Positions 9,015-46,443 of a stretch of 64,000 bases of DNA are shown piece after piece. Position 1 is the stretch's first letter; each line of letters opens with the position of its first letter. A program made the translations under genes and the position numbers. The notes under the pieces were generated by a model. The model did no database searches and had not been told where the DNA came from. It saw only the letters and a list, made by a program, of their open reading frames with translations. The stretch covers positions 186,001 through 250,000 of the forward strand of contig NZ_JARHUJ010000006.1 of NCBI RefSeq assembly GCF_029223285.1, written 5' to 3'. This stretch comes from Paraflavitalea sp. CAU 1676. Lineage in GTDB: Bacteria > Bacteroidota > Bacteroidia > Chitinophagales > Chitinophagaceae.

Positions 9015-9584
9015 TTATGGTTTACCGCCGGTAGCAGGCTTCGCAGCAGGCTGATTAGCACCTGGCGTTGGCAGTTTAATGTTCAGTTTTTTAGCAACCA
9101 GGGGCAGAATGTCTTCGGCAGGAGGAGCAACCAGCAGGGCTTCCTTTTCGAAAACAAATACGTAGTTGGCTTCTTTAGCTACAGCCTGAATAGCATCATA
9201 TGCTTTCTTGTTGATAGGCTGAATCAGCTCTTGTTGTTTTTGCTGGAGCTGTTGTTGAATGCGCTCTTCTTCACCACCCAGTTCCTGGCCCATCTTGGTG
9301 AGCTCGGTTCTCTTTACCACCTTAACAGCTTCGGAGAGCGTTGCAGAATCTTTATTGAATTTTTCGATCGCTGCATAAAAAGCGTTCTGCTTTTCAGTAG
9401 CGTTCTGTACGAGTGCGTTGCGGAATTCGGTAAGCAGTGAGTCGGCTTTACGCGTTTCAGGCATAATGCTTACTACTTCCTGAGAGCTGATATATCCGAT
9501 CTTTGTTTGTGCGTTTACTTCACCAGCCACCATCAGGCCCAGGGCAAACAACATACCTGTAAAAAACTTTTTCATGCGTTTCAT
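9015..9584 (-). CDS. OmpH/Skp family periplasmic chaperone (copy 1)
   Basis: About 189 residues with a signal peptide (MKRMKKFFTGMLFALGLMVAGEVNAQ). The mature protein starts with KIGYISSQEVVSIMPE, the usual OmpH opening, then a long charged helical region rich in Gln and Lys, which builds the coiled-coil arms of Skp, and ends in a disordered Pro/Ala/Gly tail. Skp-type trimers hold unfolded outer-membrane proteins for the BAM complex. A second paralogue and bamA lie directly upstream. ATGs at 9584 and 9575 are both possible. Confidence 0.9.
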   Translation of the reverse strand: MKRMKKFFTGMLFALGLMVAGEVNAQTKIGYISSQEVVSIMPETRKADSLLTEFRNALVQNATEKQNAFYAAIEKFNKDSATLSEAVKVVKRTELTKMGQELGGEEERIQQQLQQKQQELIQPINKKAYDAIQAVAKEANYVFVFEKEALLVAPPAEDILPLVAKKLNIKLPTPGANQPAAKPATGGKP

Positions 9585-38873: not shown

Positions 38874-41117
38874 TTATCGCGCTACCGGGTTGCTTCTCGG
38901 CTTCAGCAACTCTTTAAAGAATTCAAATCCCTGCTGATTGTTGGCCGTGAACAGCGCTTCACTGATATCGATCTTTTCGCTTTTGGTGAGGTGAAAATTG
39001 AGTGCCGCCCGGGCATCTTCCTTTTTGGGCAAGTACTGGAAGGATAACCGGTAAAACTGGTTACCCAGTATTTCCTGCGAGAGGCAAAGCAATTCACTTT
39101 GCGAATACTCCTGCATCTTATACCAGTTGTATTGCAACAGCATGACCGGTTTGGTAGCGATCTCGGTAATGTTGCCTGCTTCAAAGGGCTCCCAGCCGGC
39201 CATTTTGCGGTCGCGTATCTGAATAAGTACGACGCCGTTGGTATTCTCCTTGATCCAGTGCTGAAATACCTGCAGGAAACGGATCGTGGTTTCCAATCCG
39301 TAGTTATCGCGCAGTCCGGCATCCATTACATCAATGACCGGGCTGGATGGCAGCCATACGTTGGGCAGCACATACGGGAAGGTGGCATTCATGCGCAGCG
39401 CGGTAAGCATGCGCAGGTTCATAGGCGACTGTCCTGCAAACATCGACTGGAAATCGATGGCATCGGGTTCTATTTCCCGTAGCTTATTGGTATCGTATAC
39501 AGGCTTCATGAGAAAGCTGACCGGCTGCGTGCTGATAAGCATCTTGCGGCTATCCTGCGTGATAACCGAACTGAACACCATTAAAGGAGTACGCGCATTG
39601 GCTTCGTCCTCATACAGGTCTTTCAACTGTTTGTTGAGGATGCCGTGGGTATTTTCATTGAGTTTTTGCTCGAAGGCATAACCGCGGTCTTTCACATATT
39701 CGTAGCCACTAACTTTGAATTTCTGTGCCGGCGATGCGAGGTCGCGTGCTACGAAAGAGGTGAACAAGGAATTGAGCAGATCTCCGGAAATATCATCAAC
39801 ATACTGCTCATCCTGCAGGCGAATGTTCTTTCCTGCAGCCTTTTCGCGGCTCAGTTCACGGAAATAGGCGGCTCCCAGCATACCTCCTGACGCACCTGTG
39901 ATAAAAGCGGTTTTCTTCATAAGCTGCCCTTCGCTGAGGCTATCGAGGTATTGCATCACATTCATCGTAAACGTAGCGCTCCGGTTGCCTCCCCCACTGG
40001 TATTGATGATGAACATGGTGGGCTTTTTGGTGTCCTGGTTGGCCTTCCAGCGGTCGAGTATGGCGATCATGTTTGCCTTGTCACGGGCAACATTTTCGGG
40101 CGAGCACAGCATGAACAGGTTTTCGCGCGTATAGGCAGGCCGGTCCTTCTTATTGCTGTAGTTAAGACCGTATGCTTTGTTGGTGGGATCGATGATATTG
40201 TTGCGGTAGAGAACATTCAACCCAAAGAACAACAATACCAGTACAGGTATACTCCAGCTTTGCAGAAAATAGGTAAATGCCCCCGAAACGGCGATGAGGA
40301 TGGCGAAGAACAAGGTTATGCCGGATGCGGCAGGCAACTGAAACAAAGGATCATCAAGGCAAAAGCCCAGGAGAATGAGAAAGATGAAGGCGATAAAGAT
40401 CGATAGTACCGCCGCGAAGTGATGACGGCTGAATATGGTTTCTACAAATTCACGGCTGTAGTGTGATACGTCGCGCACTTTCTTAAGGGTAAACAGCGAA
40501 TTGAGGTACCACTCCACCCGTACCAGCCGGCTTTGGGTAAGTCTATCATCGCCCTTTCTGAACTGCGCCTTGAACAACTGCGGGTTGCTGATCACCGGGG
40601 TAAGCCGGCGGATAATGGTCTTGTCGGCCCGGAAGAAATAATAAAAAGAAATAGCAATGATGATGACGAGGCCCCCGAGGAAGCCTGCTACCAGCAGCAA
40701 TATTTCGCTGGTGGTCATAAGTTCCTTGATCCCGGCAAACTTCACGACTTTGCTGAGGTAGAATACAAGAAACAGTAGTGGTATGATGCCGTTATTGATA
40801 CAATACTTCAGGAATGGATTGGAGGTAGTGGCGAGGAAACGGAAATGACGGCTAAAGAGAATAAAGGTGGTAATGTTCCAGCTCATGATGAAGATGCCGA
40901 TGGCCACTCCTACGAATACGGCACTGAGGGCATTTACCTTTCCCAGGTACTCGGGAGCGAGATACAGAGAATCGGCCCCAAAGCTTTTCATGAAGCTACC
41001 GTTGACCGTACTGAAAAGTACAAACCAGAAGATGAGCAGTACCTGGAATTTTTTAAAATGCAGCAGGAACAGCTGGATGGGAAATGACCGGTAAAATCCG
41101 CGTAAAAATGGTTTCAT
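38874..41117 (-). CDS. Membrane-embedded patatin-like phospholipase
   Basis: A 747-residue protein in two parts. Residues 1-305 hold about seven membrane helices. Residues about 365-740 are a patatin domain: oxyanion loop NTSGGGNRS, nucleophile Ser410 in TGASGGML and catalytic Asp599 in VMDAGLRDN. It therefore probably cleaves acyl chains of membrane lipids at the cytoplasmic face. The architecture is unlike soluble patatins and unlike outer-membrane PlpD types. It starts 59 bases after the heme A synthase gene on the same strand and may be read with it. Confidence 0.88.
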   Translation of the reverse strand: MKPFLRGFYRSFPIQLFLLHFKKFQVLLIFWFVLFSTVNGSFMKSFGADSLYLAPEYLGKVNALSAVFVGVAIGIFIMSWNITTFILFSRHFRFLATTSNPFLKYCINNGIIPLLFLVFYLSKVVKFAGIKELMTTSEILLLVAGFLGGLVIIIAISFYYFFRADKTIIRRLTPVISNPQLFKAQFRKGDDRLTQSRLVRVEWYLNSLFTLKKVRDVSHYSREFVETIFSRHHFAAVLSIFIAFIFLILLGFCLDDPLFQLPAASGITLFFAILIAVSGAFTYFLQSWSIPVLVLLFFGLNVLYRNNIIDPTNKAYGLNYSNKKDRPAYTRENLFMLCSPENVARDKANMIAILDRWKANQDTKKPTMFIINTSGGGNRSATFTMNVMQYLDSLSEGQLMKKTAFITGASGGMLGAAYFRELSREKAAGKNIRLQDEQYVDDISGDLLNSLFTSFVARDLASPAQKFKVSGYEYVKDRGYAFEQKLNENTHGILNKQLKDLYEDEANARTPLMVFSSVITQDSRKMLISTQPVSFLMKPVYDTNKLREIEPDAIDFQSMFAGQSPMNLRMLTALRMNATFPYVLPNVWLPSSPVIDVMDAGLRDNYGLETTIRFLQVFQHWIKENTNGVVLIQIRDRKMAGWEPFEAGNITEIATKPVMLLQYNWYKMQEYSQSELLCLSQEILGNQFYRLSFQYLPKKEDARAALNFHLTKSEKIDISEALFTANNQQGFEFFKELLKPRSNPVAR

Positions 41118-41176: not shown

Positions 41177-42304
41177 TTATGCTGCGGCTGGTTGCCGTTT
41201 GGGCAGCAGGTACAGCATGGCGATAAAACTGAGCAATAACAACATGCCAACCACCTGATGCAACTGGGCCATCCACTCGAACGTTCCCCATTGCTGGGGT
41301 TTGATTCCCGGGCTGGTAAGCACCGTTACGATGCCCAGTATTACCTGCGCCACCACAAACAGCAGGGGCCAGGGGCGCGCTTTGCGGAAGGCTTCGCCCG
41401 GCGCAGCCACTTTATATGCTTTTACTGCATAAACGATCACCAGCACCAGCAACAGGTAAGCAAGTCCGCGGTGTATAAAATGGATGGTCATCTTGTTCTC
41501 GAAAAAGTTTAACAAAAGAGGGCTTTCCCGGAAAATGGAAGGGGGTATTAAATCTCCATTAATATCGGGCCAGGTAGGCGCCGCGAGGGCCGCTTTATGA
41601 CCTGCCATGAGCGCCCCGAAGATCAGCTGGAGGAACAACAGTCCGATGATCCACCAGGTCCATTTGCGTAAGGAAGAATTGGGCTTGCGTTCCCGCGCGG
41701 GTACGCGCAGTTGCAGGGCAAACCAATAGGCATAGCAGATCAATGCCAGCGCAAATATGAAGTGCAGGGCCAACCGGGTAGGCTTTACATATACAGCATC
41801 GCCGGTGAGGCCGCTGGCCACCATGATCCAGCCGATGGCTCCCTGAAAGGCGCCAAACAGGAACAGGAAGAGCAGCGGCTGCTGCATTTCGCGTTTGAGG
41901 TATTTCTTGGAAACCAGGTAAACGAAACCAACGAGGAATACCACACCGATCATCCTTGCCCAGAAGCGGTGGAACCATTCCCAGAAGAAAATGAATTTGA
42001 AGTCGGCCAGGGTGAAGTCGGAATTCAGCAGGAGGTACTGAGGCGTTTGGCGGTACTTATTAAACTCCTGCACCCAACGATCTTCATTGAGCGGAGGCAG
42101 GGTGCCTGTTACCACGTTCCATTCGGTGATGGACAATCCCGAACCCGTTAAACGGGTGATGCCTCCCAATACTACCTGGATCAGCAGCATGCCTACACCG
42201 ATCAGTATCCAGACCGAGACATAGCGACGGGCCTTTTTATCGATCTTGTCTGCTTCCTGCTGAAAGCCCTGTCCGGGCGCTGGGTAGTGGGTATTGGTAT
42301 CCAT
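41177..42304 (-). CDS. ctaA: Heme A synthase (COX15/CtaA family)
   Basis: A 375-residue integral membrane protein with about eight helices. It opens with a soluble tail, then the family signature GGITRLTGSGLSITEWNVVTG interrupted in the usual way, WEWFHRFWARMIG with a heme-ligand His, and late HFIHRGLAYLLLV and WMAQLHQVVGMLLL His motifs. It oxidises the heme O methyl group to give heme A for aa3-type oxidases. Here it is the last gene of a tight run with sulfur-related genes (24-base gap to the DsrE gene), not next to oxidase subunits. Confidence 0.93.
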   Translation of the reverse strand: MDTNTHYPAPGQGFQQEADKIDKKARRYVSVWILIGVGMLLIQVVLGGITRLTGSGLSITEWNVVTGTLPPLNEDRWVQEFNKYRQTPQYLLLNSDFTLADFKFIFFWEWFHRFWARMIGVVFLVGFVYLVSKKYLKREMQQPLLFLFLFGAFQGAIGWIMVASGLTGDAVYVKPTRLALHFIFALALICYAYWFALQLRVPARERKPNSSLRKWTWWIIGLLFLQLIFGALMAGHKAALAAPTWPDINGDLIPPSIFRESPLLLNFFENKMTIHFIHRGLAYLLLVLVIVYAVKAYKVAAPGEAFRKARPWPLLFVVAQVILGIVTVLTSPGIKPQQWGTFEWMAQLHQVVGMLLLLSFIAMLYLLPKRQPAAA

Positions 42305-42328
42305 AGCGCCCGCAAAGGTAGTGCAGGA

Positions 42329-42736
42329 TTATGGAATCACTTTAATGTATCCCCATCCTTGTTTTTGGCGCGTAATGATCTCATATATTCCGTCGGGCAC
42401 TGTTTGTACGCCGGGGATTAACTGGTCTTTGGACAGGTTTTGTCTTTGCATGGTAACTGCACAAACTTTAAACGCGGCTTTTTTGGCCAGTTCCTGTACA
42501 GCAGGTTCTACCACCGATTTGTTTTTGGTGACCAGGTCGAGCCCGCCGCCATATATAACGATCTCTATTTTGGCATCGGGATTGGCTTTTAGTATGCTGC
42601 CAGCCTGGCGCACTACCGTATGATAAGCCATGGTGTCCTTGCTGGTTACATCAAATACGACTTTGTAATCGGTTGTTTGCGCTGATAAGTACTGGCATGC
42701 CAGTAACATCAGAAAGAGAAATAAGTATTTTTTCAT
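42329..42736 (-). CDS. Secreted DsrE family protein
   Basis: A 135-residue protein with signal peptide MKKYLFLFLMLLACQYLSAQ. The mature DsrE/DsrF-like fold shows YKVVFDVTSKD, IEIVIYGGGLDLVTK and FKVCAVTMQ with Cys92 at the place of the active cysteine of DsrE proteins, then IPGVQTVPDGIYEI and a final QGWGYIKV. DsrE-type proteins carry sulfane sulfur as a persulfide. This one must work in the periplasm. It is 33 bases after the TsdA-like gene and shares a C-terminal pattern with the Tat-exported protein two genes upstream. Confidence 0.88.
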   Translation of the reverse strand: MKKYLFLFLMLLACQYLSAQTTDYKVVFDVTSKDTMAYHTVVRQAGSILKANPDAKIEIVIYGGGLDLVTKNKSVVEPAVQELAKKAAFKVCAVTMQRQNLSKDQLIPGVQTVPDGIYEIITRQKQGWGYIKVIP

Positions 42737-42769
42737 GTGGAGGAGTATTAGCGTTGAATGATCTGTGTT

Positions 42770-43771
42770 TTATTTGGGTGATACTGCTTTGGACTGTTCT
42801 TTAAAATCTGCGATCTTTTTAAAGGGGCCATATTTGTGTTGTTGCTCGGAAAAGGTGTCGGCATAGGGGCCGTACGGATGGTCGACGGGTTTACTTTGCA
42901 TGGCAGGCCAATCGCCGGCAAATAACTTCTCGGGCCTTGTCTGCGAGTTGATATAGGCCGCCACATCCCAGGCCTGTTCGTCGGAGAGGACCGGCTTGTG
43001 GTGAAAGGCTTCGTCATACGGCATATTGTCGCGCACATAACCAGCCAGTCGCGAAAGGCGATATATACCTGCCCCGGTGTTGTAACTGCCGGCACCCCAC
43101 AGCGGCGGATATTGGTAGCCAATGCCTGTGATAGAGTCGGGCACCCCCTGACCATCGTTACCATGGCAACGCTGACAATAAGCGACGTATACTTTGCTAC
43201 CTGCTGCAGGATCGGCCGGGCGGTCGAGATAGGCTATGGAGGAAATGCCCACCCCTACCGGTTTCTTTTTTGCGGGTACATTGCTGCCCACCCATTTGAT
43301 ATAGGCTACCATCGCTTTCAGTTCGCGGCTGTTGCTATCGAGGGGCTTTCCGTTGAGGCTGCGCTGCAGGCAATCATTGACACGTTTTTCTACCGACTCT
43401 ACGGTGCCGCTCCTTTCCCGGTAACGGGGATAGGTAGTAGCAACGGCACTATAGTTGTTGCCGTAAGCGCGTGTGCCTGCATCGAGGTGGCAGTTCTGGC
43501 AGTTCATGCCGTTGGAAATGGCCCGTACGGTTCCCTGCGGGCCCAGGTATCGTGCAGTATGGGCGACCAGGGAGCGGCCATACCGGATCAGATCACCGTC
43601 GGTCGTGCGGGGTATGGTGGCTGTGTCGGGCGCTTCCCAGGGCCATTCGGGCAAAGCGGCCGAAGCCAGTTTGCCCGATTGCTGACCTACCGGGTTATAC
43701 TTTATCAATAACATGCATAACGAGGCCACCACGACAACCAGCAATATGGTTAGCTGTAATTTACGTGGCAT
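42770..43771 (-). CDS. Diheme cytochrome c, TsdA-like (thiosulfate dehydrogenase type)
   Basis: A 333-residue protein with an N-terminal membrane anchor (residues 5-23) and two c-type heme sites, C91-Q-N-C94-H95 and C199-Q-R-C202-H203. Between them VNDCLQRSLNGKPL carries Cys134, 43 residues after Cys91; this matches the spacing of the heme-ligating cysteine in characterised TsdA enzymes, as I recall it. LSDEQAWDVAAYINSQTRP near the end also fits. TsdA joins two thiosulfates to tetrathionate or does the reverse. It is bracketed by two DsrE-type genes with short gaps (25 and 33 bases). Confidence 0.88.
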   Translation of the reverse strand: MPRKLQLTILLVVVVASLCMLLIKYNPVGQQSGKLASAALPEWPWEAPDTATIPRTTDGDLIRYGRSLVAHTARYLGPQGTVRAISNGMNCQNCHLDAGTRAYGNNYSAVATTYPRYRERSGTVESVEKRVNDCLQRSLNGKPLDSNSRELKAMVAYIKWVGSNVPAKKKPVGVGISSIAYLDRPADPAAGSKVYVAYCQRCHGNDGQGVPDSITGIGYQYPPLWGAGSYNTGAGIYRLSRLAGYVRDNMPYDEAFHHKPVLSDEQAWDVAAYINSQTRPEKLFAGDWPAMQSKPVDHPYGPYADTFSEQQHKYGPFKKIADFKEQSKAVSPK

Positions 43772-43796
43772 ACAAAAAAATTAAGACGGTGGGGCG

Positions 43797-44495
43797 TTAG
43801 CCTGCGAAACAATAAGAGCATCCGTGTTCCTGCGCCCTGTTAACGGCCCATACGCCTGACGGCATCGGCTGAATATTTGGCAACAAGCCAGCTACCCATT
43901 CCTTCTTCACGACGGCAGGATCCAGGTTCATTTTACCCGCTATTGCTGCGCTGTACACGGTCATCGCTGCATCGCATACACAGAACATGACACCGCTCTC
44001 CTGCAATTCATTGATCCCGATATTTATTACCCCAAAGCCCGGAACTTTAAAGGCACCTTGCTCGGGTTTCCAGAATGGATTGCGGGTGGCGGGTTGCTTG
44101 GTAGCAGGATCATCGGCTTTGAACACTTCGCCGAAATTGTATTTTGCCCAGAGGTCGTGTTGCATCGCGTAGGGTATTGCATCGTGACGCAAGATGACTA
44201 CTACGCTGCAATCTTTTTCGGGAGTGCCGGTAGCGCCGTTGGTAAGCAGGAATACCCGTGGCCAGGCAAACGGAAATATTTCGTGCGGACGGGGTGCATC
44301 GAATACGATGCGGTGTTTCCCTTTAATCTTGTTGAACCATTCTTCCGCATCTGCGATACCCTGTTGTGAAAAGTCGGGTGAGGCCATCATACTAAGTGGA
44401 CTTGCCAGGGTGGTGATTCCCAAAGCGGCAGCTCCTGTAGCCAAAGTGCCGAGAAAACCGCGGCGGGAGGATACATTCAAATCATTGTTTTCCAT
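43797..44495 (-). CDS. Tat-exported DsrE-like protein with C-terminal CxxC
   Basis: A 232-residue protein. Residues 10-37 form a Tat signal (SSRRGFLGTLATGAAAL). The mature region resembles a DsrE fold: CSVVVILRHDAIPYAM, VPGFGVINIGINELQESGV, FCVCDAAM with Cys172 and Cys174, and a C-terminal segment IQPMPSGVWAVNRAQEHG like the neighbouring DsrE protein's VQTVPDGIYEI. It ends CSYCFAG (Cys226, Cys229). Tat export implies folding, perhaps with a bound metal, before transport. It is first in the run Tat-DsrE, TsdA-like, DsrE, ctaA. Confidence 0.78.
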   Translation of the reverse strand: MENNDLNVSSRRGFLGTLATGAAALGITTLASPLSMMASPDFSQQGIADAEEWFNKIKGKHRIVFDAPRPHEIFPFAWPRVFLLTNGATGTPEKDCSVVVILRHDAIPYAMQHDLWAKYNFGEVFKADDPATKQPATRNPFWKPEQGAFKVPGFGVINIGINELQESGVMFCVCDAAMTVYSAAIAGKMNLDPAVVKKEWVAGLLPNIQPMPSGVWAVNRAQEHGCSYCFAG

Positions 44496-44890
44496 AATTG
44501 ACTGTTTTAATAATCAAGCAAATTTCATTTCGCCCGGCAGGTTTTGAAATACCCGAAAGCGCAACTTCCGTTCCCCGAATGCGGGGAGCCGGTACATGGT
44601 TGATGATCTAAAGAGCCGACCGTTGTTGCTCCAATAATTTCAATCCAGACAAAGGATACAGAAAACGAATGTGGTGATAGTGGATCCGATAGTGCTCCTG
44701 GCGTAAGGTTATTCGCCAGCGCAATACCTGTAAAGTGAAAGATATCCAGGCAAATAGAGAAGTTTGTGCAATGCTTACAACAATTCCTGTTATAAATTTA
44801 ATGAATTAAGTATCGCATTCCTATTCTAATTTCTGCCCCTCCCCGCAGAATGAATGGTGCAGCATTGAGTTGTACAGATGGTGGAAGCTG
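44496..44890. other. Intergenic region upstream of the sulfur-related operon
   Basis: A 395-base stretch between the TauE gene and the Tat-DsrE gene. It should hold the operon promoter. A possible -7 on minus near 44648 (tatcctttg, one base too long for TANNTTTG) is not convincing. A small GC hairpin (ccccg/cgggg) lies near 44573. I see no gene. Confidence 0.55.
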
Positions 44891-45697
44891 TTAAGCAGAG
44901 AAGAAGAGTTCATGCACCAATACCAGTATTCCGATCGATAACACGAACCAGCCAAATACTTTACGGAGCGATCCGGCAGATATTTTATCGGAGAGTGACA
45001 TACCCACAAAAATGCCGCCTATGGCGATGGCCGTAAAGCTCATCAACAGGGGCCAATGGATCTGATACTGGGCCATGGTGCTGAAAAAGCCAAACAAGGA
45101 ACTGAAGGTCATGATGGTTAAGGAAGAGCCTACAGCTGTTTTCATCGGCACCTTGCCAAATAATACGAGGGCTGGGATAATGAGGAAGCCGCCGCCGGCG
45201 CCCAGTATACCGGTAATGATGCCTACCCCGGCGCCCTGCAGAAATAGCGGCAGCATTTTCCGGGGCTGATCACCTGCGGGTACGATCGTTAGCTGGTTGT
45301 TGCGGGCGTTACGGATCATGGAAATGGAGGTGAGGAGCATCAGCAGGGAGAACATCAGCATCAGGAACACCGGTTTTGTAACGGCGAGCGGGCCAATGTT
45401 GAAGAAGTAGTTGGGCAACAGCGGCACCAGGTGATGCCGGGCAATAAAGACAGACAACATAGAGGCGCTGCCGAATACGAATACCACGGGTATGTCGACC
45501 AGGTTCTTGCGATAGGCCCGTACGGAACCTACGAGACTGCAGCATCCAACTACGAATAACGAGTACATCGTTGCCAGTACTGGATCAACCTTCAGCAGGT
45601 ACACCAATACCGGCACCGTTATGATGGAGCCGCCGCCGCCTATTAAACCAAGGGAGAGGCCGATCAACACTGCTATGATATAACCCGCTATTTCCAT
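44891..45697 (-). CDS. TauE/SafE family sulfite/anion exporter
   Basis: A 268-residue permease from the ATG at 45697, with eight membrane helices in two halves. Each half has the family's glycine-rich repeat: GLSLGLIGGGGSIITVPVL (first) and GIITGILGAGGGFLIIPAL (second). The C-terminus ends in a membrane helix. The family exports sulfite, sulfoacetate or other sulfur anions and some members import thiosulfate. It is on the same strand as the DsrE/TsdA run, 395 bases upstream, so probably in its own transcript. Confidence 0.9.
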   Translation of the reverse strand: MEIAGYIIAVLIGLSLGLIGGGGSIITVPVLVYLLKVDPVLATMYSLFVVGCCSLVGSVRAYRKNLVDIPVVFVFGSASMLSVFIARHHLVPLLPNYFFNIGPLAVTKPVFLMLMFSLLMLLTSISMIRNARNNQLTIVPAGDQPRKMLPLFLQGAGVGIITGILGAGGGFLIIPALVLFGKVPMKTAVGSSLTIMTFSSLFGFFSTMAQYQIHWPLLMSFTAIAIGGIFVGMSLSDKISAGSLRKVFGWFVLSIGILVLVHELFFSA

Positions 45698-45820: not shown

Positions 45821-45828
45821 TATTTTTG
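45821..45828 (+). promoter_or_regulatory. -7 element of rnhB promoter
   Basis: The sequence tatttttg matches TANNTTTG and overlaps the first possible TTG start (45826). This means the message starts about 45835 and translation must begin at the next TTG (45844). Confidence 0.45.
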
Positions 45829-45843
45829 GCCAAAGTTTTTACA

Positions 45844-46443
45844 TTGCTCAAATCTTTTCACCAGGAGGTGTTTATTGAAGCGGGTTGCGATGAGGCCGGC
45901 AGGGGTTGCCTGGCCGGTCCTGTATTTGCAGCGGCCGTCATCCTTCCCAAAGACTTTTACCATCCTTTACTCAATGACTCCAAGCAGGTAACGGAAGAGC
46001 AGCGCTATGAACTTAGGCCGGTGATCGAAAAAGAGGCTATCAGCTATGCCGTCGGCATTGTCGATCACGAAGAGATCGACCTGATCAATATTCTCAAAGC
46101 TTCCTTTAAAGCGATGCACCTCGCCATCGAACAACTCAAAACAAAGCCGGAACTGTTGCTGATTGACGGCAACCGCTTTACGCCCTACCCTTCCATTAAG
46201 CACGAGTGCATCATCAAGGGCGATGGTATCTACGCTTCTATTGCTGCTGCCAGTATCCTCGCAAAGACTTACCGCGACGATTACATGATGCAACTGCACG
46301 AGGCCTTCCCTCAATACAAATGGAATTCGAATAAAGGATATGCGACGCTGCAGCACCGCAACGCGATCGGCGAACATGGCATGAGCCCCTATCACCGCAA
46401 ATCGTTCCAGTGCCTGCCTTCGCAGCTGGAGCTCGATCTCTGA
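45844..46443 (+). CDS. rnhB: Ribonuclease HII
   Basis: A 199-residue enzyme removing RNA from RNA-DNA hybrids, including misinserted ribonucleotides. The catalytic carboxylates appear in [10 protein letters not shown] and [29 protein letters not shown] is the family signature. No ATG is available near the N-terminus. TTG at 45844 ([14 protein letters not shown]) is chosen because the upstream TTG at 45826 lies in the promoter element. It ends 15 bases before a convergent acetyltransferase gene. Confidence 0.93.

Follow-up and report, generated by a model that had tools for sequence, protein, structure and literature searches.

The window analysed here is a stretch of 64,000 nucleotides from Paraflavitalea sp. 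CAU 1676 (contig NZ_JARHUJ010000006.1, positions 186,001 to 250,000), part of an 8.8 Mb genome. Five intact open reading frames follow one another on its minus strand and encode, in this order, a TauE/SafE permease, a protein exported by the twin-arginine translocation (Tat) pathway, a diheme cytochrome c of the TsdA type, a secreted DsrE protein and the heme A synthase CtaA; successive genes are separated by 395, 25, 33 and 24 bases (Table 1). A patatin-like gene lies 59 bases past CtaA. A preliminary description of this DNA had placed the four closely spaced genes and the upstream permease in the same way, and had joined them into a periplasmic sulfur-carrier and electron-transfer module coupled to heme A supply.

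Table 1. Genes of the sulfur-gene locus and its two landmarks in the window
Feature	Position	Strand	Evidence and remarks
TauE/SafE permease, 268 aa	44891..45697	-	PF01925 139.7 bits, above cut-off; same direction as the Tat gene, 395 bases 5' of it
Tat-exported protein, predicted DsrE fold, 232 aa	43797..44495	-	TIGR01409 above cut-off; AlphaFold with Foldseek/VIA; remote match to NF052225
TsdA-type diheme cytochrome c, 333 aa	42770..43771	-	PF21342 55.5 bits, above cut-off; PDB match to Allochromatium TsdA
Secreted DsrE, 135 aa, Sec signal	42329..42736	-	PF02635 34.9 bits (cut-off 22.7)
Heme A synthase CtaA, co-directional neighbour	41177..42304	-	PF02628 (COX15-CtaA) 304 bits
Patatin-like membrane protein, landmark, not part of the unit	38874..41117	-	PF01734 28.1 bits; fixed 3' neighbour of CtaA
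RNase HII, landmark at the opposite edge of the sulfur-gene slot, not part of the unit	45826..46443	+	PF01351 138 bits

Comparison of the cytochrome against the PDB revealed a match to the Allochromatium thiosulfate dehydrogenase over the whole catalytic domain, with an E-value of 3e-40. The two heme sites are CQNCH at residue 91 and CQRCH at residue 199. Cys134, the axial ligand of the catalytic heme 1, and Met250, the ligand of heme 2, both align with the Allochromatium residues, and the two CxxCH motifs, Cys134 and Met250 are invariant among the TsdA relatives. With the SoxA-TsdA domain present and the catalytic cysteine ligand kept, the earlier assignment as a TsdA-like diheme cytochrome is confirmed. 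A membrane anchor is predicted at the N-terminus. At G000:C19:336681-337670 (locus L070) there is another TsdA/SoxA-like diheme cytochrome, a distant one with 37% identity, which adjoins genes with SusC/SusD-looking translations. In one congener (G086, locus L034, about position 9070), tsdA is spread over two frames, indicating a frameshift or a sequencing error.

The Tat signal of the second protein scored above the TIGR01409 cut-off, and TatC is present in the genome. The protein has no Pfam match, and none of 21 family members matched the DsrE family PF02635 at E 0.1. Searched as a single sequence it matched no solved structure, and its profile match was weak. In contrast, the AlphaFold model, built on a 52-sequence alignment, has a predicted local distance difference test (pLDDT) score above 90 across nearly all of the mature domain, and its top Foldseek matches are DsrE-like proteins (E 1e-4). 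Comparison of the model with ST0148 yields a Z-score of 14.0 and 1.4 Å over 107 residues, well above the unrelated entries, while DsrE (2hy5) and TusD give Z-scores of 10.2 and 9.9, respectively. The predicted structure places the Tat protein among the DsrE-fold proteins, at the level of the fold only. The name Tat-DsrE, proposed earlier and used below, is upheld by the fold and the export signal and not by sequence family.

Cys174 and Cys226 are invariant in the Tat-DsrE family, and profile comparison pairs Cys174 with the sole conserved cysteine of the secreted DsrE. In addition, 46 of the 52 members remotely match NF052225, an NCBI model named 'thiosulfate dehydrogenase', with a best E-value of 5.4e-7. 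Wherever a range is given, the match spans the C-terminal half including both invariant cysteines. The equivalog cut-off of 300 bits is not reached, the protein of the window scoring 13.1 bits. A search for the Tat protein on plasmids gave no match. The secreted DsrE is the sole PF02635 match in the genome and resembles MTH1491 (E 2e-19). Its Cys92 is invariant in two alignments (17/17 and 26/26), which together with the PF02635 score and the Sec signal bears out its description as a secreted DsrE-type protein.

The distribution of these genes was followed in a family sample of 197 genomes from 103 genera and a phylum sample of 296 genomes. Scanning GTDB genomes brought up 324 relatives of Tat-DsrE, 80 of which were kept, and the neighbour counts refer to the flanks examined around these 80. 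The Tat protein occurs in 35 genomes of the family sample, from 24 genera, and has matches in 8 genomes of the phylum sample. All 35 family genomes with Tat-DsrE also carry TsdA, compared with 73 of 197 overall (Fisher p ~1e-18, uncorrected for kinship), an association far beyond chance. The 80 kept relatives all belong to Bacteroidota, namely Chitinophagales, Sphingobacteriales and Cytophagales; relatives at the sulfur-gene locus include Chitinophaga, Niastella and Terrimonas. TsdA lies near the Tat-DsrE gene at 61 of the 80 loci and the secreted DsrE at 37. The placement of TsdA varies, being downstream on the same strand, downstream and inverted, or upstream, and on a quick tree the adjacency persists through at least nine orientation changes, few of them on strongly supported branches. 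An independent-pairs test of TsdA against the secreted DsrE had too few supported pairs. The counts support Tat-DsrE and TsdA, often with the secreted DsrE, as a conserved periplasmic sulfur/electron unit across many genera. Conservation of the neighbours beyond close relatives, on which the preliminary description had made the module idea depend, thus extends over three orders, and the core of that idea stands. A pairing of TsdA with an exported DsrE was not described in any paper reached by our literature searches, which did not extend to most subscription papers. No TsdA lies close to the Tat-DsrE gene in Spirosoma (S. telluris L117, 9741-10525, and loci L098 and L149); TauE is broken across two frames in L117, and a gene resembling a flavin adenine dinucleotide (FAD) oxidase lies upstream in L098 and L117.

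Such strict genome-level dependence on TsdA and such tight adjacency would also be expected if the Tat protein helped TsdA to assemble or to work, and were not a sulfur carrier or enzyme. A lipoprotein of Wolinella is reported to enhance TsdA in this manner. However, the predicted DsrE fold with an invariant cysteine at the DsrE position, and the resemblance to NF052225, a family named for an enzyme activity, argue against this role. Moreover, 38 of the 73 TsdA genomes are without Tat-DsrE, so TsdA does not need it. We consider an assembly factor unlikely.

The place of heme A synthase is different. CtaA is present in 189 of the 197 family genomes and in 168 of the 169 good ones, and RNase HII, CtaA and the patatin-like gene stand together in eight control regions that have no sulfur genes (L159-L163, L166, L168, L169). 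In other control regions the same gap between RNase HII and CtaA holds TauE alone, Crp-PDO-YeeE-YeeE, or YeeE-YeeE-TsdA, where PDO is a persulfide dioxygenase-like protein. CtaA therefore marks a slot where sulfur genes come and go, and is by position a bystander. As CtaA is nearly universal and its flanks are kept without sulfur genes, the earlier claim of a coupling to heme A supply is reduced to a matter of position, and heme A synthase was rejected as a module partner on the evidence of the control regions. A wider module, in which CtaA belongs functionally and sets the oxidase supply for sulfur oxidation, could draw on its co-directional position 24 bases downstream and on its presence near Tat-DsrE at 15 of the 80 loci, but other Tat-DsrE loci are without it, and in several it lies on the strand opposite to the Tat gene; together with the distribution above, this makes the wider module very improbable. 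The large patatin-domain membrane protein (38874-41117) is found 3' of CtaA in most relatives with the landmark locus.

The variable gene subsets in the gap between RNase HII and CtaA might also mean that the pair merely shares a busy location without joint function. This is hardly credible, because Tat-DsrE and TsdA are kept together at unrelated genomic sites and in different orientations in three orders, and because whatever subset the gap holds consists of sulfur genes or the regulator linked to them.

The genes associated with the pair are likewise sulfur genes, namely the PDO-like protein (at 18 of the 80 loci), a YeeE/TsuA-like pair (15-17), TauE (14) and a SoxB-like protein (4). The PDO-like protein combines metallo-beta-lactamase and rhodanese domains, and the YeeE pair has its match in PF04143, a family of sulfur transport. 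Against TIGR04486, which has a cut-off of 550, the score of the SoxB-like protein is 241 bits. The full run, Crp-TauE-PDO-YeeE1-YeeE2-TatDsrE-TsdA-secDsrE, occurs in Niastella and Longitalea, where it lies between RNase HII and CtaA. In Larkinella humicola (L104, 9716-11446), TauE and TsdA form one frame of 577 residues with TauE at the N-terminus, just downstream of the Tat-DsrE gene. Both the neighbourhood and this fusion link TauE to the unit as an associated permease, as had been suggested from its position. Another contig of the Paraflavitalea genome (G000:C6, L191, 7502-11588) carries Crp, TauE, PDO, YeeE1 and YeeE2 together in the order seen in Niastella, and therefore the set of this genome is complete and split in two. 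OmpA and ABC transporter genes lie further on at this second locus. TauE probably carries sulfite or a related anion out of the cell. In Hyphomicrobium, TauE has been suggested as the export route for sulfite that arises from sulfane sulfur (PMC12423496), which fits the position of TauE here. None of the 35 Tat-DsrE genomes yielded SoxY in a search, made for SoxY and not for SoxZ, that detects it in 35 of the 296 phylum genomes. No close SoxB was found in the Paraflavitalea genome, where the best match reaches 59.9 bits; in the eight relatives that do have a close SoxB-like protein, the scores are ~223-265 bits.

Taken together, we propose a periplasmic module for thiosulfate/tetrathionate, encoded by the genes from 44495 to 42329, in which TsdA would work jointly with the exported DsrE proteins, a reading to which we assign a probability of roughly 0.55. 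It is supported by the homology of TsdA with both heme sites and Cys134 kept, the predicted DsrE fold and the aligned cysteine of Tat-DsrE, its remote NF052225 match, the co-conservation and the persisting adjacency, the sulfur-gene neighbours, the TauE-TsdA fusion and the second locus of this genome. Two precedents also support it: the TsdA reaction passes through a Cys-S-thiosulfonate (PMC4423706), and in Metallosphaera the cysteines of a DsrE pick up thiosulfate from tetrathionate (PMC4175335). The sulfur-carrier and electron-transfer module of the preliminary description is thus retained for Tat-DsrE, TsdA and the secreted DsrE with their link to TauE, and loses heme A synthase. In the proposed mechanism, TsdA would oxidise thiosulfate at the cysteine-ligated heme, and the electrons would leave by way of heme 2, to be taken up by cytochrome c and a heme-copper oxidase. 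Tat-DsrE may be the cysteine-based thiosulfate partner of TsdA, binding thiosulfate or thiosulfonate on Cys174/Cys226, either as a carrier or as a dehydrogenase with TsdA as its electron acceptor. The secreted DsrE might serve through Cys92 as a second sulfane carrier. The second locus, with its Crp-TauE-PDO-YeeE pair, would supply import and persulfide oxidation, and TauE would export the sulfite made inside from the imported sulfur.

The reaction might also run in reverse, with TsdA reducing tetrathionate in low-oxygen respiration or detoxification and the DsrE proteins taking up, or protecting against, thiosulfonate products. Asn249 precedes the ligand Met250 in the TsdA of the window, the family consensus being Lys-x-Asn-Met. 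In this respect it is like the tetrathionate reductase of Campylobacter jejuni, which has Asn254 and Met255 at heme 2, and unlike the Allochromatium enzyme with Lys208. However, wild-type C. jejuni TsdA works at about the same rate either way (PMC5146829), so the asparagine does not set the direction. In addition, the linked PDO-like, YeeE, TauE and SoxB-like genes are oxidation genes, and the genome encodes three heme-copper oxidase subunits I; a reductive module is therefore rather unlikely.

Several points weigh against the proposed thiosulfate/tetrathionate module. TsdA was not found in the examined flanks of 19 of the 80 Tat-DsrE loci, and therefore the Tat protein may have a TsdA-independent role as well, while the secreted DsrE is near just 37 of them. 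The similarity of Tat-DsrE to NF052225 is limited to the C-terminal half and falls short of the model cut-off. The DsrE3A of Metallosphaera is cytoplasmic and reacts with tetrathionate, not with thiosulfate (PMC4175335). Finally, we infer the enzyme activity of the module proteins, as well as the substrate, the direction, the sulfur transfer and the electron path. If the proposal is correct, the common soil Bacteroidota heterotrophs, in which SoxY was not found, would have a defined thiosulfate route, and DsrE sulfur carriers would operate in the periplasm beside a heme enzyme.

The TsdA enzymes of Allochromatium vinosum and Campylobacter jejuni share with the one described here the diheme SoxA-type architecture, both CxxCH motifs, the cysteine on heme 1 and the methionine on heme 2. 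In contrast to the known TsdA systems, the conserved unit has no TsdB partner and has one or two exported DsrE-fold proteins instead, and one relative has TsdA fused to the TauE permease. The DsrE3A-TusA system of Metallosphaera cuprina (PMC4175335) is similar in having a DsrE-type cysteine that could carry thiosulfate; however, its DsrE3A works in the cytoplasm with TusA, whereas the DsrE proteins here are exported and paired with a cytochrome. The TsdA-SoxB pathway of Erythrobacter flavus (PMC7608252) resembles the present set in its TsdA, in the SoxB-like protein of some relatives and in being without SoxY, but that paper does not mention DsrE proteins. As the genome of the window has no close SoxB, the tetrathionate-SoxB route of Erythrobacter is not its pathway.

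In Acidithiobacillus ferrooxidans, the cofactor-free thiosulfate dehydrogenase (TSD) is AFE_0042, which carries a Tat signal (PMC2754497) and has a mass of ~25 kDa (PMC6335251). From its name, size and Tat signal, we take NF052225 to model this enzyme. Tat-DsrE is like it in Tat export, in size and in the remote profile similarity of the C-terminal half with both cysteines, but lies far under the NF052225 cut-off and adjoins TsdA instead of doxDA and a rhodanese. A Sox-like pathway without SoxYZ can be suggested tentatively, in which TsdA would load exported DsrE-fold carriers, followed in some relatives by SoxB-like hydrolysis; the cofactor-free TSDs of Acidithiobacillus might then be DsrE-fold proteins with a TsdA-like cytochrome as acceptor. 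The structure and mechanism of the cofactor-free enzyme are listed as open questions in a review (PMC6335251), and for these the remote TSD link yields a concrete prediction, that is, a DsrE fold and a cytochrome acceptor.

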